Assembly: GCA_013140575.1 (NCBI GenBank)
Contig: JABFSN010000184.1
Location: forward strand, 1 to 64,000
Source: Phycisphaerales bacterium
GTDB lineage: Bacteria; Planctomycetota; Phycisphaerae; UBA1845
Length of the DNA stretch: 64,000 nt
Reading direction: 5' to 3'
Below, in pieces: positions 38,295-45,746 of this stretch. A program made the translations under genes and the position numbers. Each line of letters starts with the position of its first letter. The first letter of the stretch is position 1. The notes under the pieces are model-generated. The model made no database searches, was not told the DNA's origin, and saw only the letters and a program-made list of their open reading frames with translations.

Positions 38295-41200
38295 TCAGGG
38301 CTTGATCGTCCAGCGGTCGCTGGCGGCGTTTGATCGGACGTAGGGCGAATACATGGCCGACAGTTGCGTGGGCAGGACGCGGAACGCACCCGGCGTTTCG
38401 CATCGGACGCGGTAGGTCAATCTGTGCGTGCCCTGCGGCAGGTAGCTCGCGAAGAAGGCCACGTGCCGGTCACGCAGCTCGCGGTAGACGTACAACGATT
38501 GCCCGACACTCGCGGGATCGCCGTAATCCGCGCCGCTCAACAGGTCGGCCGGCTCGCAGCCCGCGGGTTTGGGATCCTCGATCAGGATGTATTCGAACGC
38601 GTTGCGCGAATCTATGTCCAGCGCCACCTCGACCAGATCGCCGGCCGACAGCGCGTCACGATCGGAAATGGGTTCGCGGTCGTAGTCGATGGCCTGATAG
38701 GTCTCGTCGATGTAGCGGCGTTTGCCAAAATTCCAGATGCGCCGGGTGCGCTCGACCTGTTTGGGAATCAATCGGGCGTAGCCGCGCTTGACGATGATGT
38801 CGTGACCGGCCGCGTGAATCGGATCCTGGCGCGTGTAGTAATCGGCGTAGGTCGCGTGGTAGACCGTACCGCGGCCGTCCTTGTCGATGCGAACCGTGTG
38901 CTTGCCGGGGGTAACGTGCTGCGGGGCCAGGATCATGCGGGCGTCGAACGTCAGCACGTTTTCCGGCGTGATTCGGAAACTGCGTTTGACGTCGCGGTCG
39001 TAGGTGACCGTGACGGTCATGTCGGCGTCCAGCTCGCCGGTGTGCAACAGATAGTCGGTCAACGCGTAAATGGCGAACGCGGTGTCTTTCGTGGAATACC
39101 AATGGGCGCCCTGCCGGTTGCGGACCAGCCACGTGCCCGCCATGTTGACGTGCTTGTGATCGGGCGCGACGGCCAACAACGCCCGCAGCACCATGGCCGT
39201 CGATTCCAGGCCGTTGTCGTACCAGAAACGATAGCCCGTGCGATGGCCCCAACTTGCCGTTTGGGTCGTTTCGTCGACGTGCACCGTGTTTTCCAGGTTT
39301 TCAATGACCACGGCCGCCCGGTCGCGATCGCCGGCGGCGTGCAGCGCGATGGCCAGCATGGCCCGGGTGTAGTCGGTCAGGTCGTCGCGCTTTTCAAACG
39401 CCTGATCCAACGCGGTTCGCGTCGGGGCGTCGCGGAGCAGGCCGGGATCGACGGTGGCCAGCGCGTACAGCATCCACATACGCACGTTGGCGTCGTTCGC
39501 GCCGCGCCACGATCGCGCGAATGCGTCGGGCGTGGCGATGGCCGATTTCAACACAGCGACGCCGCGGTCGAGCATGGCCGGATCGATTGTGACGTCCGCC
39601 CGCCGCGCTTCAGCCAGCCCATAGACGACGTAGGCGGTCATGTACGGGTCGGACGCACCCTCGTGGAACCAGCCCCATCCGCCGTCCGGCGATTGCAATT
39701 CAGCCAGCCGGGCCAGCCCGTTGGCCACGATGGTGTCCATGACGTTGGTCCGGAACACCGGATGATCGTTCAGTCCGCGTCGGCCGCGGCCGTCGGGCGG
39801 GGTCGGATCGGCGGCGATTCGACCGGCCAACGTTTCCAGTTTTACGCCCATGCGGTTCAATGTGTGCCGGGTGACGACGGCCGGCAGGAATCGGCTCATC
39901 GTCTGCTCGACGCAGCCGTACGGGTAGTCCAGCAGGTACGGAATCGCGTCCAGAATCACGCCGGCGATCGTCGGGTTGATGTGGATTTCGACGATGGGGG
40001 TGGCGGCGTCGATTTCGTCGGGGATGGTCAGATTCACGACTTCAGACGTGACCTCGTCGCCTTCGCGGATAATGCCGGTGAATGTCTGCAACTGCTGAGC
40101 GCCGAACGGGATGATGGGGATGGTCAATTCGACGGCGTCGGATTCGACGTCGGTCTGAACGGTGGCCTTGAATACCGCGTCGCCCGGGGCGTCGGCGGTC
40201 ACTGCGAAATCGACCACGCGTTCGGCACCGGCGGGCACGTTGAATTCGACGCCGCGCGTCGAATTGGAATACCCCGATTCGACGCCGAAAATCGTAACGT
40301 CCACGTCGACATCGACGCGAAGTGTGATTTCGCGTTTGGCGCCCTCGGGGGTCACATCGCCGAGCAGGATCGGCGGCGACGACTTCAGTTCGACGCGCAT
40401 CTTCTTGTCCTGTTTCAGGTCGTTGCGGGCGATCACGCTGATGGTGGCGCGATCGCCCTGCACCAGGAATCGCGGGGTCTGCAGTCGGGCGATGACGTTT
40501 TTGCGGGTGACGAATTCGTGCGACGCCTCGCCGACGCGGGTGTCGTCGTCGATGGCGACGGCCGTCAGCCGCCACGTGGTCAGCGTGTCGGGGAATTGGA
40601 TCGGCACCGACGCCTTGCCGTCGGCCCCGGTTTGAACGTGTCCCAGCCAGACGACCGAATCGGGAAATTTGCGACGGATGGCCGCGACGGCGAATTCGGC
40701 ACCGCCGCTGCCCGGCGCTTGCTTGGCCATCGCGAAACCGTCCGCGCTGGCCGGTGCAGCCATTTCCATGGCCATGTCGCCGGCTACGGAACTGAACAAT
40801 CCCGCCTCGCCGCCGCGGCGGTCGCTGGATTTGTAACTGTATTGGTCGGTGTGTAACGACGTCTGCGTCTGCACGCCGTGATAGCGCAATTGACCGTAGA
40901 AAAACTTCTGAACCGCCTCGCGGAATTCGGGCTGAATGGCGTACAAACTGGCGTCGACCATCATGACGGCCAGATCGGCCGCGGCGGGTTCGCCGGTGGC
41001 GTCGGTGGCCGTCATCACGACTTCCGTTTCGTCGCCCGGTTTGAATTCATCGGCGGGGGCGGACACGTCGACGGTAAGGAACCGATCCGTCGGCGGCACG
41101 ATGACCGATCGCCGATCTTCAAACACGCGCTGGTCGTGGACCATGGTGGCCACCAGCTGAAAATTGGGCGTATGACGTTTGGTGACCGGGAATTCGACCA

Positions 41201-44042
41201 CGCCGCCGCCGCCGGTCAAGCGGATGATGCGGTGTTCCAGCAATTCGTCGATTTCGTACGTCAGCAACGCGCGAGCGTCGTCGAACCGTGAATGAATCAA
41301 CAGACGCGCCGTATCGCCCACGTCATATACGGTCTTGTCCAGGACGATTTCGACGTCGCGATACGCCGTTTTCCCGACGGCCTGCCCCGGTTTGCTGATC
41401 CAGATATCGCATTGCCCGGTTGGCTGCGGCTCGCCGTCCGTTGCGGCGGTGACCACGACGCGGAACGGACCGGCCTCGTCGGCCGTGAAACGGAGGACGG
41501 CGGATTCCGGTCCGGCGGATTCGACTGCGCCCTCGGCGACCTGATCGCCGGTCACCAGTTCGACAATGCCGCGACCGTCATCGACCACGCCGCCCGGTGC
41601 GGACGGCGGCGGGCTGACCAACCGGTAGACCCGTGCGGTGCCCTTAAACGCGACGGGTTCGTCGTCGGCCGACCGGGCGTCGATGTCCACGTGGATGGTG
41701 TCGCCCAATTCGTACCACCAGCGCTGCGGGCGGAGTTGCAGGGCGAACGGGAATTTCGTGACGCTGATGGCCCCGCTGCCGGACACGGTTCGGCGTGAAT
41801 TGTCGGTGACGTCGACGTCGACCCGGTACCGATGGCCTATTTGGCCGCCGGCGAACGGCCCGCCGCCGGTCGCGGCGTCGGTCGGAAGATCGGCGGACGG
41901 ATCGATGCGCAGCAGAACGGTTCCGTCGGCATCGGTTCGCAACGTGCCGCGTTGCACGACCGTTTCATGGTCGTCGCCGGGCCACCACGGCATGCCGCAT
42001 CCGCGCATATCGCCGCGGAGATCGTCAAAATACCGGGTGTACGGCGACGGGTAACGGAACCGCGGGTACAGATCGCCGCGGTGGATCGTGTACGTCAATT
42101 CCGCGTCCGCCACCGGCGAACCGAAATAGTAGCGGGCCTCGACGCGGACATCGACCGGTTGATCCAGCGCGTGCCGGCCGTCGCCGGCCGACACCGTCAC
42201 CTCGAATTCCGGTTTGCGGTATTCCTCGACGCGGAACACCCCGCCCGACCCGGTCATCACATATTGTCCGCCGACGGTGACGTTGAACCGGTAGATGCCC
42301 AGCGGGGCGGCCGTCGGCACCAGAAATTCGCCGACGACGGCGCCGCGCTCGTCGGTGCGCATCGTCTTTTCGAACACCGTCTGCCCTTGCGGGTCCATGA
42401 TGGTGACGGCTGCGGCATCGGGCGGGACGGTTTGATAGGTACCGTCGTCGTATTGCCGCACTACGTGTTTGAAATGGACGGTTTGCCCCGGCCGGTAGAT
42501 CGGCCGATCGGTCATGGAATAGGCCCGCAATTGCGCGGCGGACGGCTGACCGTACAGGTACATGGCCCCCTGCACGGCGGCCACGTGGTCGCCGTCGCGC
42601 AGGAAAAACTCGACGCGGCTGCCGCCCTCGCGATGGTTGTCCAGCGTCAATTCCAGAATGCCGTCGGCATCGGTGCGGCCGTCGTGAAATCGGACGCCGT
42701 TCTGGCCGAACCGTTCCTTGACCAGCACGTCGACGTTGGGTTTGGGCTCGCCGGTCACGGCGTCGACGGCCCACACCAGCGTGTCGTTTTGGGCGGCCTT
42801 CACTACGGCGGCCAATCGCGTGACCAGAACCAGCGTGCTGCGGATGACCGGTTTGCCGGCGGTCGGCGTTCCGGTCGCGAACAACACGTACGCGCCCGGC
42901 GGCAGTTCCGGCAGTCGAATGGTCGGCAGCGTCCCGTCGGTGGTGTCGAGATAGCGATGTTCACCGGTGTCGGAAACATCGATCGACCATTCGGCCGCGC
43001 GATCGATGTAATTTGATTCGCGGTCTTCCGCGTCGTGATCGGCGCGGGCGTAATCGAATAGATCAACCCGATACACGCGGAATTGAACAGCGTTGATGTT
43101 GCGAACGTGTACTTGCAATTCGTGAACGCCATCGGGCAGAACGGGGCCAATTGCAGGCAGCTGCAATTGGGGCGACGTGATGCGTCTGCGATCGGCCTCG
43201 GCGCGCGTGGCATATCGCGTCCCCGCGTATCGTTTGATGATCTGATCATATCGCTTGACCGTGGCGACGTAGTCCGCTGGCGGCACTTCCAACAAGCGGG
43301 CGATTTCGAATTCGGCCAACGGCGCTTCTTTCGATTCTGGAAATCGTTCGATCAGTTCTTCAAATCGCTGCTTCCGCGCGTGAATCGTCGCGACGGCGTC
43401 GTCGTTGACCGCCGACCAGTCGGCCATCGTCTGCATCGCACGGGTGTACATGGCGGCCGACGCTACGGCGGAATCGTCGGTCAGATCGATGCCGCGGGTC
43501 AGCCACGCATCGGCGAGCGACCGGCGCAGCGATTCCACGGCGGCCGGGTCGTCGGGCGGTTGCACATCGGGCCACTGCAGGTTTTCCCAATCGCCGAATC
43601 CGATCAGTAGCGTGCCGCATTGGATGGCGGCAACGGCCGCGCCGTGCTTGTCACCGGCCGCCAGTTTCAGATCGAACACCCGTCGCCAGCGGTTCAACGC
43701 GTCGGCCAGTTTGTCGTGGCGGTTCTGTAGCGCTTCCGCGGCGGTTTCGTGCAGGTCGGCGCGCTCGTCGAGCGCTGGATGCGATTGGATAATTTCATTC
43801 AATGCGGCGATGCCCGCGTCGAATTCGTTCAGCTTGAACAGGCATTTGACGCGCAGGATGCCGGCTGCGATTGCCGTGGATTCATCCGGTTGTGTAGTTA
43901 GGACTTGATCAGCCGTGTCGAGTGCGGCCTTGTAATTGTGCCGGTCGAATTGCTGTAACGCCGATTCCAGCGTCGGCGGGCCGACGGGTTGCGCGATCCA
44001 TAATGCCGCGGCGATTATGACTACCGTCCGGATGTCGAACAC
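38295..44042 (-). CDS. Bacterial alpha-2-macroglobulin family protein with thioester
   Basis: A 1915-residue exported protein. A short signal (MFDIRTVVIIAAALWIAQPV) is followed by a helical TPR-like region to about residue 270 (YKAALDTADQVLTTQPDEST, FPESKEAPLAEFEIARLLEV). The MG2-type macroglobulin domains follow (YSMTDRPIYRPGQTVHFKHV, GPFRVVVTAATDGEP), then the bait/A2M core (FPDTLTTWRLTAVAIDDDTR). The thioester site is PYGCVEQTMSRFLPAV (Cys1377, Gln1380), with the thioester alpha/alpha toroid after it and a C-terminal receptor-like domain ending RVLPTQLSAMYSPYVRS. The intact Cys-x-Glu-Gln indicates covalent protease trapping in the periplasm. No PBP1c gene, the common partner in Proteobacteria, is present. 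The deiodinase-like selenoprotein gene lies upstream on the same strand. Confidence 0.93.
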   Translation of the reverse strand: MFDIRTVVIIAAALWIAQPVGPPTLESALQQFDRHNYKAALDTADQVLTTQPDESTAIAAGILRVKCLFKLNEFDAGIAALNEIIQSHPALDERADLHETAAEALQNRHDKLADALNRWRRVFDLKLAAGDKHGAAVAAIQCGTLLIGFGDWENLQWPDVQPPDDPAAVESLRRSLADAWLTRGIDLTDDSAVASAAMYTRAMQTMADWSAVNDDAVATIHARKQRFEELIERFPESKEAPLAEFEIARLLEVPPADYVATVKRYDQIIKRYAGTRYATRAEADRRRITSPQLQLPAIGPVLPDGVHELQVHVRNINAVQFRVYRVDLFDYARADHDAEDRESNYIDRAAEWSIDVSDTGEHRYLDTTDGTLPTIRLPELPPGAYVLFATGTPTAGKPVIRSTLVLVTRLAAVVKAAQNDTLVWAVDAVTGEPKPNVDVLVKERFGQNGVRFHDGRTDADGILELTLDNHREGGSRVEFFLRDGDHVAAVQGAMYLYGQPSAAQLRAYSMTDRPIYRPGQTVHFKHVVRQYDDGTYQTVPPDAAAVTIMDPQGQTVFEKTMRTDERGAVVGEFLVPTAAPLGIYRFNVTVGGQYVMTGSGGVFRVEEYRKPEFEVTVSAGDGRHALDQPVDVRVEARYYFGSPVADAELTYTIHRGDLYPRFRYPSPYTRYFDDLRGDMRGCGMPWWPGDDHETVVQRGTLRTDADGTVLLRIDPSADLPTDAATGGGPFAGGQIGHRYRVDVDVTDNSRRTVSGSGAISVTKFPFALQLRPQRWWYELGDTIHVDIDARSADDEPVAFKGTARVYRLVSPPPSAPGGVVDDGRGIVELVTGDQVAEGAVESAGPESAVLRFTADEAGPFRVVVTAATDGEPQPTGQCDIWISKPGQAVGKTAYRDVEIVLDKTVYDVGDTARLLIHSRFDDARALLTYEIDELLEHRIIRLTGGGGVVEFPVTKRHTPNFQLVATMVHDQRVFEDRRSVIVPPTDRFLTVDVSAPADEFKPGDETEVVMTATDATGEPAAADLAVMMVDASLYAIQPEFREAVQKFFYGQLRYHGVQTQTSLHTDQYSYKSSDRRGGEAGLFSSVAGDMAMEMAAPASADGFAMAKQAPGSGGAEFAVAAIRRKFPDSVVWLGHVQTGADGKASVPIQFPDTLTTWRLTAVAIDDDTRVGEASHEFVTRKNVIARLQTPRFLVQGDRATISVIARNDLKQDKKMRVELKSSPPILLGDVTPEGAKREITLRVDVDVDVTIFGVESGYSNSTRGVEFNVPAGAERVVDFAVTADAPGDAVFKATVQTDVESDAVELTIPIIPFGAQQLQTFTGIIREGDEVTSEVVNLTIPDEIDAATPIVEIHINPTIAGVILDAIPYLLDYPYGCVEQTMSRFLPAVVTRHTLNRMGVKLETLAGRIAADPTPPDGRGRRGLNDHPVFRTNVMDTIVANGLARLAELQSPDGGWGWFHEGASDPYMTAYVVYGLAEARRADVTIDPAMLDRGVAVLKSAIATPDAFARSWRGANDANVRMWMLYALATVDPGLLRDAPTRTALDQAFEKRDDLTDYTRAMLAIALHAAGDRDRAAVVIENLENTVHVDETTQTASWGHRTGYRFWYDNGLESTAMVLRALLAVAPDHKHVNMAGTWLVRNRQGAHWYSTKDTAFAIYALTDYLLHTGELDADMTVTVTYDRDVKRSFRITPENVLTFDARMILAPQHVTPGKHTVRIDKDGRGTVYHATYADYYTRQDPIHAAGHDIIVKRGYARLIPKQVERTRRIWNFGKRRYIDETYQAIDYDREPISDRDALSAGDLVEVALDIDSRNAFEYILIEDPKPAGCEPADLLSGADYGDPASVGQSLYVYRELRDRHVAFFASYLPQGTHRLTYRVRCETPGAFRVLPTQLSAMYSPYVRSNAASDRWTIKP

Positions 44043-44232: not shown

Positions 44233-44916
44233 TCAGGATCGCGGCGGGCCGACGTGTTTTTTCAGCCAGTCGGACAGTTCGTCGGGATTGAATCCGAATG
44301 GTCCGACGCCGCCCGCGTAGCGGACGATTCCGGCGGCGTCGATCACGAACAGGCGTTCCGGCCAGCCGGCGTAGGCGTTGTCAACCGTGTTGTCCATGTC
44401 GTCGACGATGCACGGCATGGTCAAATCGAGCGCCGTCGCACAGCGTTTGGCCGTCGATCGGCGTTCGCCGAATGTTTTGGGTTGCGCGAGAACGACGTTG
44501 TCGGTCCGATTGGATTCCATCTGCCACCCGTCGTCGGGATGGGCTTCGTGGATGTAGACGAACAGGAACGCGACGCGGTCGCGGTAGGCTTGATACATTT
44601 TTTCGAGGTCGCCGGACCGGCGACGGAAAGGCGGTCAGGTGTAGCTGCCGAATATCAGGACCAGCGGCCGGTTTTCATGGAAATCGGACCGGGTGATGGT
44701 CGCGTCGCCGTCGTCGGTCGGCAGGGTGAAATCGGGCGCCTTCTCGTTGACCGCCGGCGCCCGGCGCGCCATCCACGTCTTGACGTCTTCCCAACCCGGC
44801 GGACGCTCGTCCGCGGGTTTGGCGTCCACCATGCGGATGTAATCATCCACGGACGGAGCGCATCCGGAAATCGCGATGACGCTGACGGCGAGCGTCCATG
44901 TCGTGACCCGCGTCAT
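44233..44916 (-). CDS. Deiodinase-like thioredoxin-fold lipoprotein; selenoprotein with Sec at in-frame TGA
   Basis: A 227-residue protein in two open frames joined by one TGA (44637-44635), read here as selenocysteine 94. The signal MTRVTTWTLAVSVIAISGCA has lipobox Cys19. A redoxin opening (NEKAPDFTLPTDDGDATITR) leads to RPLVLIFGSYT-U-PPFRRR, the iodothyronine deiodinase active site (animal enzymes: FGSCT-U-PPF). After the TGA the family wording continues: FLFVYIHEAHPDDGW, PCIVDDMDNTVDNAYAGWPE, RLFVIDAAGIVRYAGGVGPF, NPDELSDWLKKHVG. A SECIS hairpin follows the TGA (separate entry). The true stop is also TGA (44235-44233). Reducing activity on a halogenated or peroxide-type substrate is likely; the substrate is unknown. 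ATG 44916 starts the signal peptide. A1: Cys or Trp at this codon would need a genome-wide code change, contradicted by many other TGA stops here. Confidence 0.92.
44608..44624 (-). promoter_or_regulatory. SECIS-like hairpin for selenocysteine insertion
   Basis: On the minus strand GTCGCCGGTCCGGCGAC is a perfect 17-nt inverted repeat, starting 10 nt after the in-frame TGA. The apex is GGUC. The E. coli fdhF minihelix is also 17 nt, begins 11 nt after its UGA and has the apical loop GGUC that SelB binds. The unpaired bulged U of the E. coli stem is absent. Confidence 0.85.
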
Positions 44917-44963: not shown

Positions 44964-45746
44964 TCACACCATGGCCATATCGCGGATCATCGCCTGATAG
45001 GCCGGCGCGGGGTCGGGATAGGTGTTGGGCGCGGGCAGGTTCCATTTGGCGAACAGTTTGGCGTTGTCGTCCTGCCCGACGGAGAGATCGGCCCACTTGC
45101 GATCGTCATGGTATTCGTCGTGATGAACCAGGGCGTCGCGGCAGCCGACGACTTTCAAACCGGCGTGCAACTGGATTTTCAGGGCCATGTCGGGGTCGAA
45201 TGCGAAAAAATAGTAGCGCTCGTCCGCGTATCCGATCTGTTGCAGCAGCGTGCGCCGCAGCAGACCGAAATTGGCGTACGGATAGCCGCGGACGTTGTAG
45301 ATTGAATAGCGCATGCCGTCATGTTCGACGGAATCGAGAACATTTCGATCGCGGTTCCAGTCATGGTAAAACGCCACCATGCCGACGTGGTCGAATCGTT
45401 CGATGAATGCAACGGCGGCCTCGACGCCGCCCGGCAACGGATGCGCGTCGTCGTTCAGCCACATCACGTACGTGCCAAGTGCCGCGCGGAAGCCGCGATT
45501 GAACGCCCGGACGGCGCCCTCGCGTCGCGGTTCCAGGATGACCCGCAGACCGTTGGCGTCGGCCAGGAATTCGCGCGTGCCGTCGGTGGACCCGCCGTCC
45601 ACGATGATGATTTCATGGGGCGTCGTCACGTTGGTGCGGATCCGCGACAACGTGTGCGCCAGCCGATCGAGGCGGTTGTACGTTGGGATGACGATACTGA
45701 CGACGGGTGCCGATGGGGCATCGACGGTCATGGCAGTCAATTCCAT
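44964..45746 (-). CDS. Glycosyltransferase family 2
   Basis: A 260-residue GT-A fold transferase. SIVIPTYNRLDRLAHTLSRI and HEIIIVDGGSTDGTREFLAD form the nucleotide-sugar site. The DxD-type metal motif is VMWLNDDAHPLPGG. A later ALVHHDEYHDDRKW segment may be the catalytic base region. No transmembrane helix is present. The frame is open to 45926, but ATG 45746 (MELTAMTVDAPS) is taken because homology starts just after it. The donor and acceptor are unknown. It lies 47 bp upstream of the selenoprotein gene on the same strand and may share its transcript. Confidence 0.87.
   Translation of the reverse strand: MELTAMTVDAPSAPVVSIVIPTYNRLDRLAHTLSRIRTNVTTPHEIIIVDGGSTDGTREFLADANGLRVILEPRREGAVRAFNRGFRAALGTYVMWLNDDAHPLPGGVEAAVAFIERFDHVGMVAFYHDWNRDRNVLDSVEHDGMRYSIYNVRGYPYANFGLLRRTLLQQIGYADERYYFFAFDPDMALKIQLHAGLKVVGCRDALVHHDEYHDDRKWADLSVGQDDNAKLFAKWNLPAPNTYPDPAPAYQAMIRDMAMV

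Follow-up and report, generated by a model that had tools for sequence, protein, structure and literature searches.

Deiodinase-like selenoproteins of bacteria were reported in 2005 from the Sargasso Sea, as four sequences with selenocysteine (Sec) and six with cysteine (Cys), the former with a bacterial Sec insertion element (SECIS) (PMC1088965). The GOS survey of 2008 brought 22 deiodinase-like selenoprotein sequences (PMC2398784), and a form fused to EF-hands was reported in 2021 (PMC9402790). Two reviews, of 2022 and 2026, give the family motif as UxxC, and the later one states that what such families do is still mostly unknown (PMC9312934, PMC13188914). We do not take UxxC as family-defining, because the 2008 survey gives the family no motif. 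Planctomycete selenoproteins have been studied in two algal-associated genomes, in a paper whose main text makes no mention of a deiodinase (PMC4807772). Our literature search, with subscription journals mostly outside its range, found nothing that ties PF00837 selenoproteins to Planctomycetota.

Here we describe a gene of this family in a stretch of 64,000 nucleotides from a Phycisphaerales bacterium (the window). With the marine proteins it shares membership of PF00837, a UGA at the catalytic site, a SECIS just downstream and Cys homologues. The marine set comprises metagenome sequences, four and later 22, and is listed with UxxC, whereas the window protein reads U-P-P-F, is a predicted lipoprotein and belongs to a Planctomycetota clade. 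The EF-hand-fused form (PMC9402790; NF038285, deiodinase_rel) has the same catalytic domain, with Sec or Cys at the site, and also occurs in Planctomycetota; the window protein lacks the EF-hand half, and its UPPF differs from the UGPF/UGPY or CGPF that predominate in the EF-hand forms we saw. Animal deiodinases Dio1-3 (structures 4tr3 and 9h48) have in common with it a thioredoxin fold with an omega-loop, FGSxT-U-PPF, the Tyr/Glu/His relay residues and Sec. It differs from them in being a bacterial lipoprotein of 34-36% identity, with Tyr92 in place of the proximal Cys and Pro146 and Val204 in place of Dio3 H219 and R275. The original prediction for this locus held such membrane-anchored proteins to be scarcely characterised, which needs qualifying: bacterial forms have been known since 2005, but we found no description of their spread in Planctomycetota, of the lipoprotein form, of repeated Sec/Cys exchange or of a multihaem-domain fusion.

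One gene across an in-frame TGA

Read on the minus strand from 44916 to 44233 with TGA as Sec, the frame yields 227 residues, with Sec at residue 94 in the context FGSYT-U-PPF (Table 1). The translation runs from a lipobox-bearing signal peptide (MTRVTTWTLAVSVIAISGC) through a linker into a thioredoxin-fold domain, and the last codon is a second TGA, a true stop at the C-terminus usual for the family. ORF calling under table 11 splits the gene into pieces of 153 aa (GTG at 45096 to the TGA) and 121 aa (ATG at 44598). The original prediction had joined two same-frame segments into one lipoprotein of this length, without naming the strand, had placed the TGA exactly at the active-site Sec of deiodinases and had expected a gene caller to report two proteins; the sequence bears it out on each point. 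The family wording that it cited on either side of the codon (EAHPDDGW, VDDMDNTVDNAY and GPFGFNPDEL) is likewise present in the translation. PF00837 matches across the TGA (residues 58-221; E 1.1e-33; 116.9 bits against a cut-off of 27), and the same codon recurs in all 53 TGA-bearing sequences that we compared, so that the split gene is, by these comparisons, one intact full-length selenoprotein gene and not a product of chance.

Table 1. Positions of the gene and of its features in the window
Feature	Position	Strand	Details	Basis
Deiodinase-like selenoprotein gene	44233..44916	(-)	227 aa plus TGA stop; one internal TGA read through	Translation with TGA=U
Signal peptide with lipobox (AISGC)	44860..44916	(-)	Predicted lipidated Cys19	Sequence; close orthologues (L023, L024, L030, L031, L039) share the lipobox
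T4_deiodinase (thioredoxin-fold) domain	44254..44745	(-)	Residues 58-221	Pfam, AlphaFold; best PDB folds 4tr3 (Dio3), 9h48 (Dio2)
In-frame UGA, Sec codon U94	44635..44637	(-)	TGC/TGT (Cys) in relatives	Same codon in 53/53 TGA-bearing sequences
Predicted bacterial SECIS hairpin	44608..44624	(-)	7-bp stem GUCGCCG/CGGCGAC, loop GUC	Covariation and RNA fold
Y121-x-x-E124-x-H126	44539..44556	(-)	Corresponds to the proton-relay Tyr, Glu and His in animal deiodinases	53/53; Dio2/Dio3 alignment
C159	44440..44442	(-)	Candidate resolving Cys (putative role)	32/53 Sec sequences
C169	44410..44412	(-)	Candidate resolving Cys (putative role)	34/53 Sec sequences

Selenocysteine machinery and conservation of the codon

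The window's own assembly is 96.5% complete, and the Sec machinery was sought in it family by family. It contains selA (560.7 bits, 2.8e-168) and, adjoining it on contig C263, selB (305.4 + 34.8 bits, 6.8e-91). A tRNA-Sec with anticodon UCA scores 66.4 bits (gathering score 47). The selD match (365.9 bits, 2.6e-109) has an in-frame TGA of its own (L010:1531-1533, contig C143) that places Sec in SCAGUAGK; SelD of this genome is thus itself a selenoprotein, which is an independent sign of Sec use. The search for selA, selB, selC and selD that the original prediction proposed has therefore returned the complete set.

A whole-genome HMM search of 397 genomes of the class (Phycisphaerae) found PF00837 in 66. 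The TGA form accounts for 52 matches in 46 genomes, the window gene included; the set of 53 TGA-bearing sequences used throughout consists of the window gene, the 51 other class matches and one sequence from a named MAG, Planctomycetia bacterium (L021). The TGA lies at the identical codon in all 53, within UPPF 51 times and UHPF twice. The remaining 20 class genomes with PF00837 carry a separate subfamily with Cys, Ser, Glu or Ala as the catalytic residue (18 sequences read). Glu occupies the catalytic position in a subfamily within family f9, and Ser or Ala in members of f11; these Glu, Ser and Ala members (L071, L078, L081, L084, L085, L087, L089) appear to retain a deiodinase-like fold after loss of the chalcogen.

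The TGA form and selA go together. Within the class, selA is present in 45 of the 46 TGA-form genomes, against 147/397 overall (Fisher p 9e-21) and 3/20 with the other subfamily (p 8e-12), and in the wider phylum it is found in 62/67 TGA-form genomes. No selA match was obtained for six TGA-form genomes (five from the phylum sample and one from the class), which are MAGs of 67-92% completeness, but selB is matched in each of them: above the cut-off in five, and by a fragment in the sixth. One selA match (G349:C353:463-1812) itself contains an in-frame TGA, either an error or real recoding.

In a phylum-wide sample, the family was found in 99 of 392 genomes. Among the phylum matches listed, 13 have no TGA and every other has exactly one; L145, one of the 13, is a Sec form merely cut at a contig end. 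True Cys orthologues read FGSFTCPPF, FGSYTCPPF or FGNFTCGPF, with the codon TGC and, once, TGT; L146-L148 and L150 carry CPPF, and an EF-hand group carries CGPF. Relatives thus have Cys at the very site, a replacement that the original prediction had advised looking for. Six of the ten Cys-only genomes lack selA, and none of these six, at 99-100% completeness, has selB or tRNA-Sec either. In our tree, Sec and Cys forms group in a single clade (SH-aLRT 99) within which the Cys forms are nested at three points, which points to repeated Sec/Cys exchange within the clade. In one genome (G736) the EF-hand-type form is present twice, once with Cys and once with Sec (L142, L143), possibly as a selenium-responsive pair.

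A covarying hairpin downstream of the UGA

The predicted SECIS hairpin starts 10 nt past the UGA, with 17 nt between the UGA and a loop whose first base is an invariant G. A hairpin at the same place is found in 41 sequences (40 from the class and L021), with 93% of cells paired and compensatory change at all seven stem pairs. Double-change cells number 38, where shuffled alignments average 12.5. The covariation score reaches 0.413, compared with 0.147 in shuffled alignments and at most 0.226 when the hairpin is slid; on four of five measures, 0/500 shuffles reach the observed values. The window RNA folds at -13.1 kcal/mol (z -2.07), and synonymous-codon resampling reveals excess structure at this place in Sec genes (offset +12, mean z -1.69) as opposed to non-Sec homologues (0.01). 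The 2005 study (PMC1088965) recognised a bacterial SECIS by a hairpin right after the UGA whose small apical loop contains a G, and the window gene has such a hairpin; the SECIS check suggested in the original prediction thus speaks for it. An Rfam scan of the region gave no match near any gathering score.

Outside the class, all seven pairs occur in this exact register in only 8/28 Sec homologues, and in many of the others the hairpin appears, by eye, to be shifted by a few bases. A distant clade of 12 Sec sequences is without the main hairpin but may form a different one further downstream, where a near-palindrome (CTTGTACGCGTCGTACAAG is an example) lies at UGA+39 to +57 (A2 alignment; L041, L050, L066 and others). 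This near-palindrome may be the SECIS of that clade or just the codons of LYxxYK. For the window gene, five largely independent lines of sequence evidence agree that the TGA almost certainly encodes selenocysteine.

Family, fold and active site

The nearest solved relatives of the window protein are the animal deiodinases. A PDB sequence search returned Dio3 (1.7e-25) and Dio2 (9.1e-23) and no other entry below 1e-3. The AlphaFold model (46 sequences; pLDDT 91.1, pTM 0.85) gave the same order in Foldseek, with Dio3 (6.5e-15, TM 0.81 on target) and Dio2 (8.8e-14, 0.82) on top, followed by ResA (5.4e-9) and AhpE (1.4e-8). Pfam also gives AhpC-TSA/Redoxin matches, weaker than T4_deiodinase. The score for NF038285 is 222.5 bits, under the cut-off of 250, because the N-terminal half of that model is absent from the window protein.

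The catalytic network described for Dio2 consists of S127, T129, Y157, E160 and H162 (PMC11592359). Its counterparts here, S91, T93, Y121, E124 and H126, are invariant in the 53 Sec sequences, as are R152 and D172, and the omega-loop EAHxxDGW is retained. The position of the second relay His (H182 in Dio2, Pro146 here) is His in 16/53 Sec sequences, and that of the substrate-carboxylate clamp (K241 in Dio2, Val204 here) is Arg in 32/53; the clamp residue is missing from Dio1 too (PMC11592359). A phylum-level Sec homologue (L131, G597) reads ASCTUPPF, the proximal-Cys arrangement of animal Dio1 and Dio3. In the 53 sequences the proximal position, two before Sec, is never Cys, and Dio2 lacks this Cys as well. 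In Dio1 the proximal Cys is the resolving residue (PMC9141512). The deiodinase-like reading of the original prediction therefore stands for family, fold and Sec, but with the counterparts of Dio3 H219 and R275, which are implicated in handling thyroid hormone, missing, 'deiodinase' is a family name here and not a demonstrated activity.

The lipobox is confined to close orthologues, 11/53 by a strict rule, and the other sequences have different signal-peptide-like N-termini. Since the window protein is predicted to be exported and lipid-anchored, it would work outside the cytoplasm. At least one Cys lies 48-75 residues past Sec in every Sec sequence, and in the alignment C169 is offset by no more than two residues from C239, the distal Cys in Dio3.

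Fusions and gene neighbourhood

EF-hand fusions are common. In a minus-strand ORF of L073 (G198), the Sec domain is followed in frame by a further domain and then by six CXXCH haem motifs (Cytochrom_c3_2-like), possibly a built-in electron donor. Two Cys-form EF-hand proteins (L134:754-3354 and L151:2-2302) end in an AhpD/CMD-like domain (TIGR01926 4.7e-9, NF053654 2.4e-8; the Pfam matches lie below the cut-off). Both kinds of fusion hint weakly at redox partners.

A conserved neighbourhood was sought in 20 homologous regions, and shared neighbours were found only among three close relatives. Around the window gene lie genes for an alpha-2-macroglobulin, a family 2 glycosyltransferase, MnmA, CarA and a Wzy-like ligase, which suggest no functional link to it. 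The alpha-2-macroglobulin (1915 residues, bacterial type) is encoded by the next gene downstream (38298-44042, minus strand) and has no conserved link to the selenoprotein.

Discussion

Sec coding, PF00837 membership, the fold, the active-site network and the predicted lipoprotein nature are strongly supported by the sequence and fold comparisons, while we infer export in vivo, the chemistry, the resolving Cys and the electron donor of the window protein. Our best guess for its function is an extracytoplasmic selenol-based reductase, and the question is which substrate Sec94 would reduce.

We rank the reduction of peroxides, sulfenic acids or disulfides, with a deiodinase fold kept by descent alone, above dehalogenation, and regard the case for it as evenly poised. 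A redox role was proposed in 2005 (PMC1088965), and the next-best folds after the deiodinases are ResA, an extracytoplasmic redox enzyme, and the 1-Cys peroxiredoxin AhpE, to which the weaker AhpC-TSA/Redoxin matches may be added. The fusions point the same way, with the AhpD/CMD-like domains in Cys forms and the multihaem domain in a Sec form, although the CMD matches fall under the Pfam cut-off. AhpE and ResA have the thioredoxin fold in common with the window protein but lie far below the deiodinases in both sequence and fold searches, and their signatures are missing: in LIFGSYTU, Leu87 stands where PxxxT/SxxC has Pro, and U94-P-P-F97 contains no CxxC, UxxC or CxxU; the +3 residue is Phe throughout the 53 Sec sequences. 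Membership of the peroxiredoxins or of the CxxC thioredoxins was rejected on these signatures.

A true reductive dehalogenase, in which a periplasmic Sec selenolate takes I or Br as a cation from an aryl halide as animal deiodinases do, seems to us rather unlikely, if worth keeping in view. It would fit the two nearest solved relatives and the retained Ser/Thr/Tyr/Glu/His set and omega-loop. It would also fit the alignment with mouse Dio2 and Dio3 (letters taken from the PDB search alignments), which in it come nearest to Sec-clade members (the best rows reach 38-39% identity and the window protein 34-36%) and lie far from the Ser/Glu forms (19-23%). Against it stand the two missing substrate and relay residues of Dio3 and a neighbourhood without dehalogenation genes; thyroid hormone, moreover, is not expected in such bacteria, as argued in PMC1088965. 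Broader still, and quite improbable in our judgement, is a scenario in which Planctomycetota hold a large old family of exported Se-dependent reductive dehalogenases whose periplasmic substrates are naturally occurring aromatics bearing iodine or bromine and whose electrons come from cytochromes or thiol carriers, and from which the animal deiodinases descended. Our tree held Planctomycetota and two animal chains only, so it does not fix the direction or source of any transfer. A viral fold search returned mainly glutathione peroxidases and thioredoxins. It also matched a 103-residue giant-virus protein annotated as iodothyronine deiodinase (BFVD A0A3G4ZQR0, Terrestrivirus; 28% identity), whose short length might reflect truncation at a UGA.

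That the TGA is a genuine stop, in a pseudogene, an assembly error or a pair of separate proteins, agrees with the split made by standard ORF calling, but it is hardly credible and in practice refuted by the same TGA in 53 sequences with both flanks conserved, the Cys orthologues, the co-occurrence with Sec machinery and the covarying hairpin. Remotest of all is a TGA decoded as Trp, or as some residue other than Sec, through an altered code or suppressor, for which we found no support: the gene itself ends in TGA, its relatives have Cys and never Trp, and the Sec machinery is complete.

We consider it highly probable that the locus encodes one full-length PF00837 selenoprotein, with Sec inserted by way of the hairpin, that is exported, anchored as a lipoprotein and acts as a selenol reductase. 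In this selenol-reductase model, a ribosome reaching the UGA at codon 94 would meet the hairpin 10 nt downstream, which would recruit SelB carrying Sec-tRNA, and Sec would be inserted in place of termination. The product would then be exported and anchored. Its thioredoxin-fold core would set the Sec94 selenol in the Ser-x-Thr-Sec/Tyr/Glu/His network, as in animal deiodinases. Sec94 would attack an atom of the substrate, either a halogen or the O or S atom in an oxidised compound, giving a selenenyl intermediate. This may be resolved as a selenenyl-sulfide by C159 or C169, the downstream Cys residues, and a donor outside the cytoplasm would reduce the selenenyl-sulfide to regenerate the enzyme.

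About one in four of the Planctomycetota genomes sampled has a member of this family, which ordinary gene finding splits, and what the bacterial deiodinase-like selenoproteins do has been a standing question since 2005. This clade offers material for testing it: a gene that is intact and has a well-supported SECIS, natural forms with Sec or Cys that change along with the Sec machinery, a genome holding both, and fusions that hint at the donor. If any member removes halogens, that would bear on the origin of the animal thyroid-hormone deiodinases and on halogen cycling.
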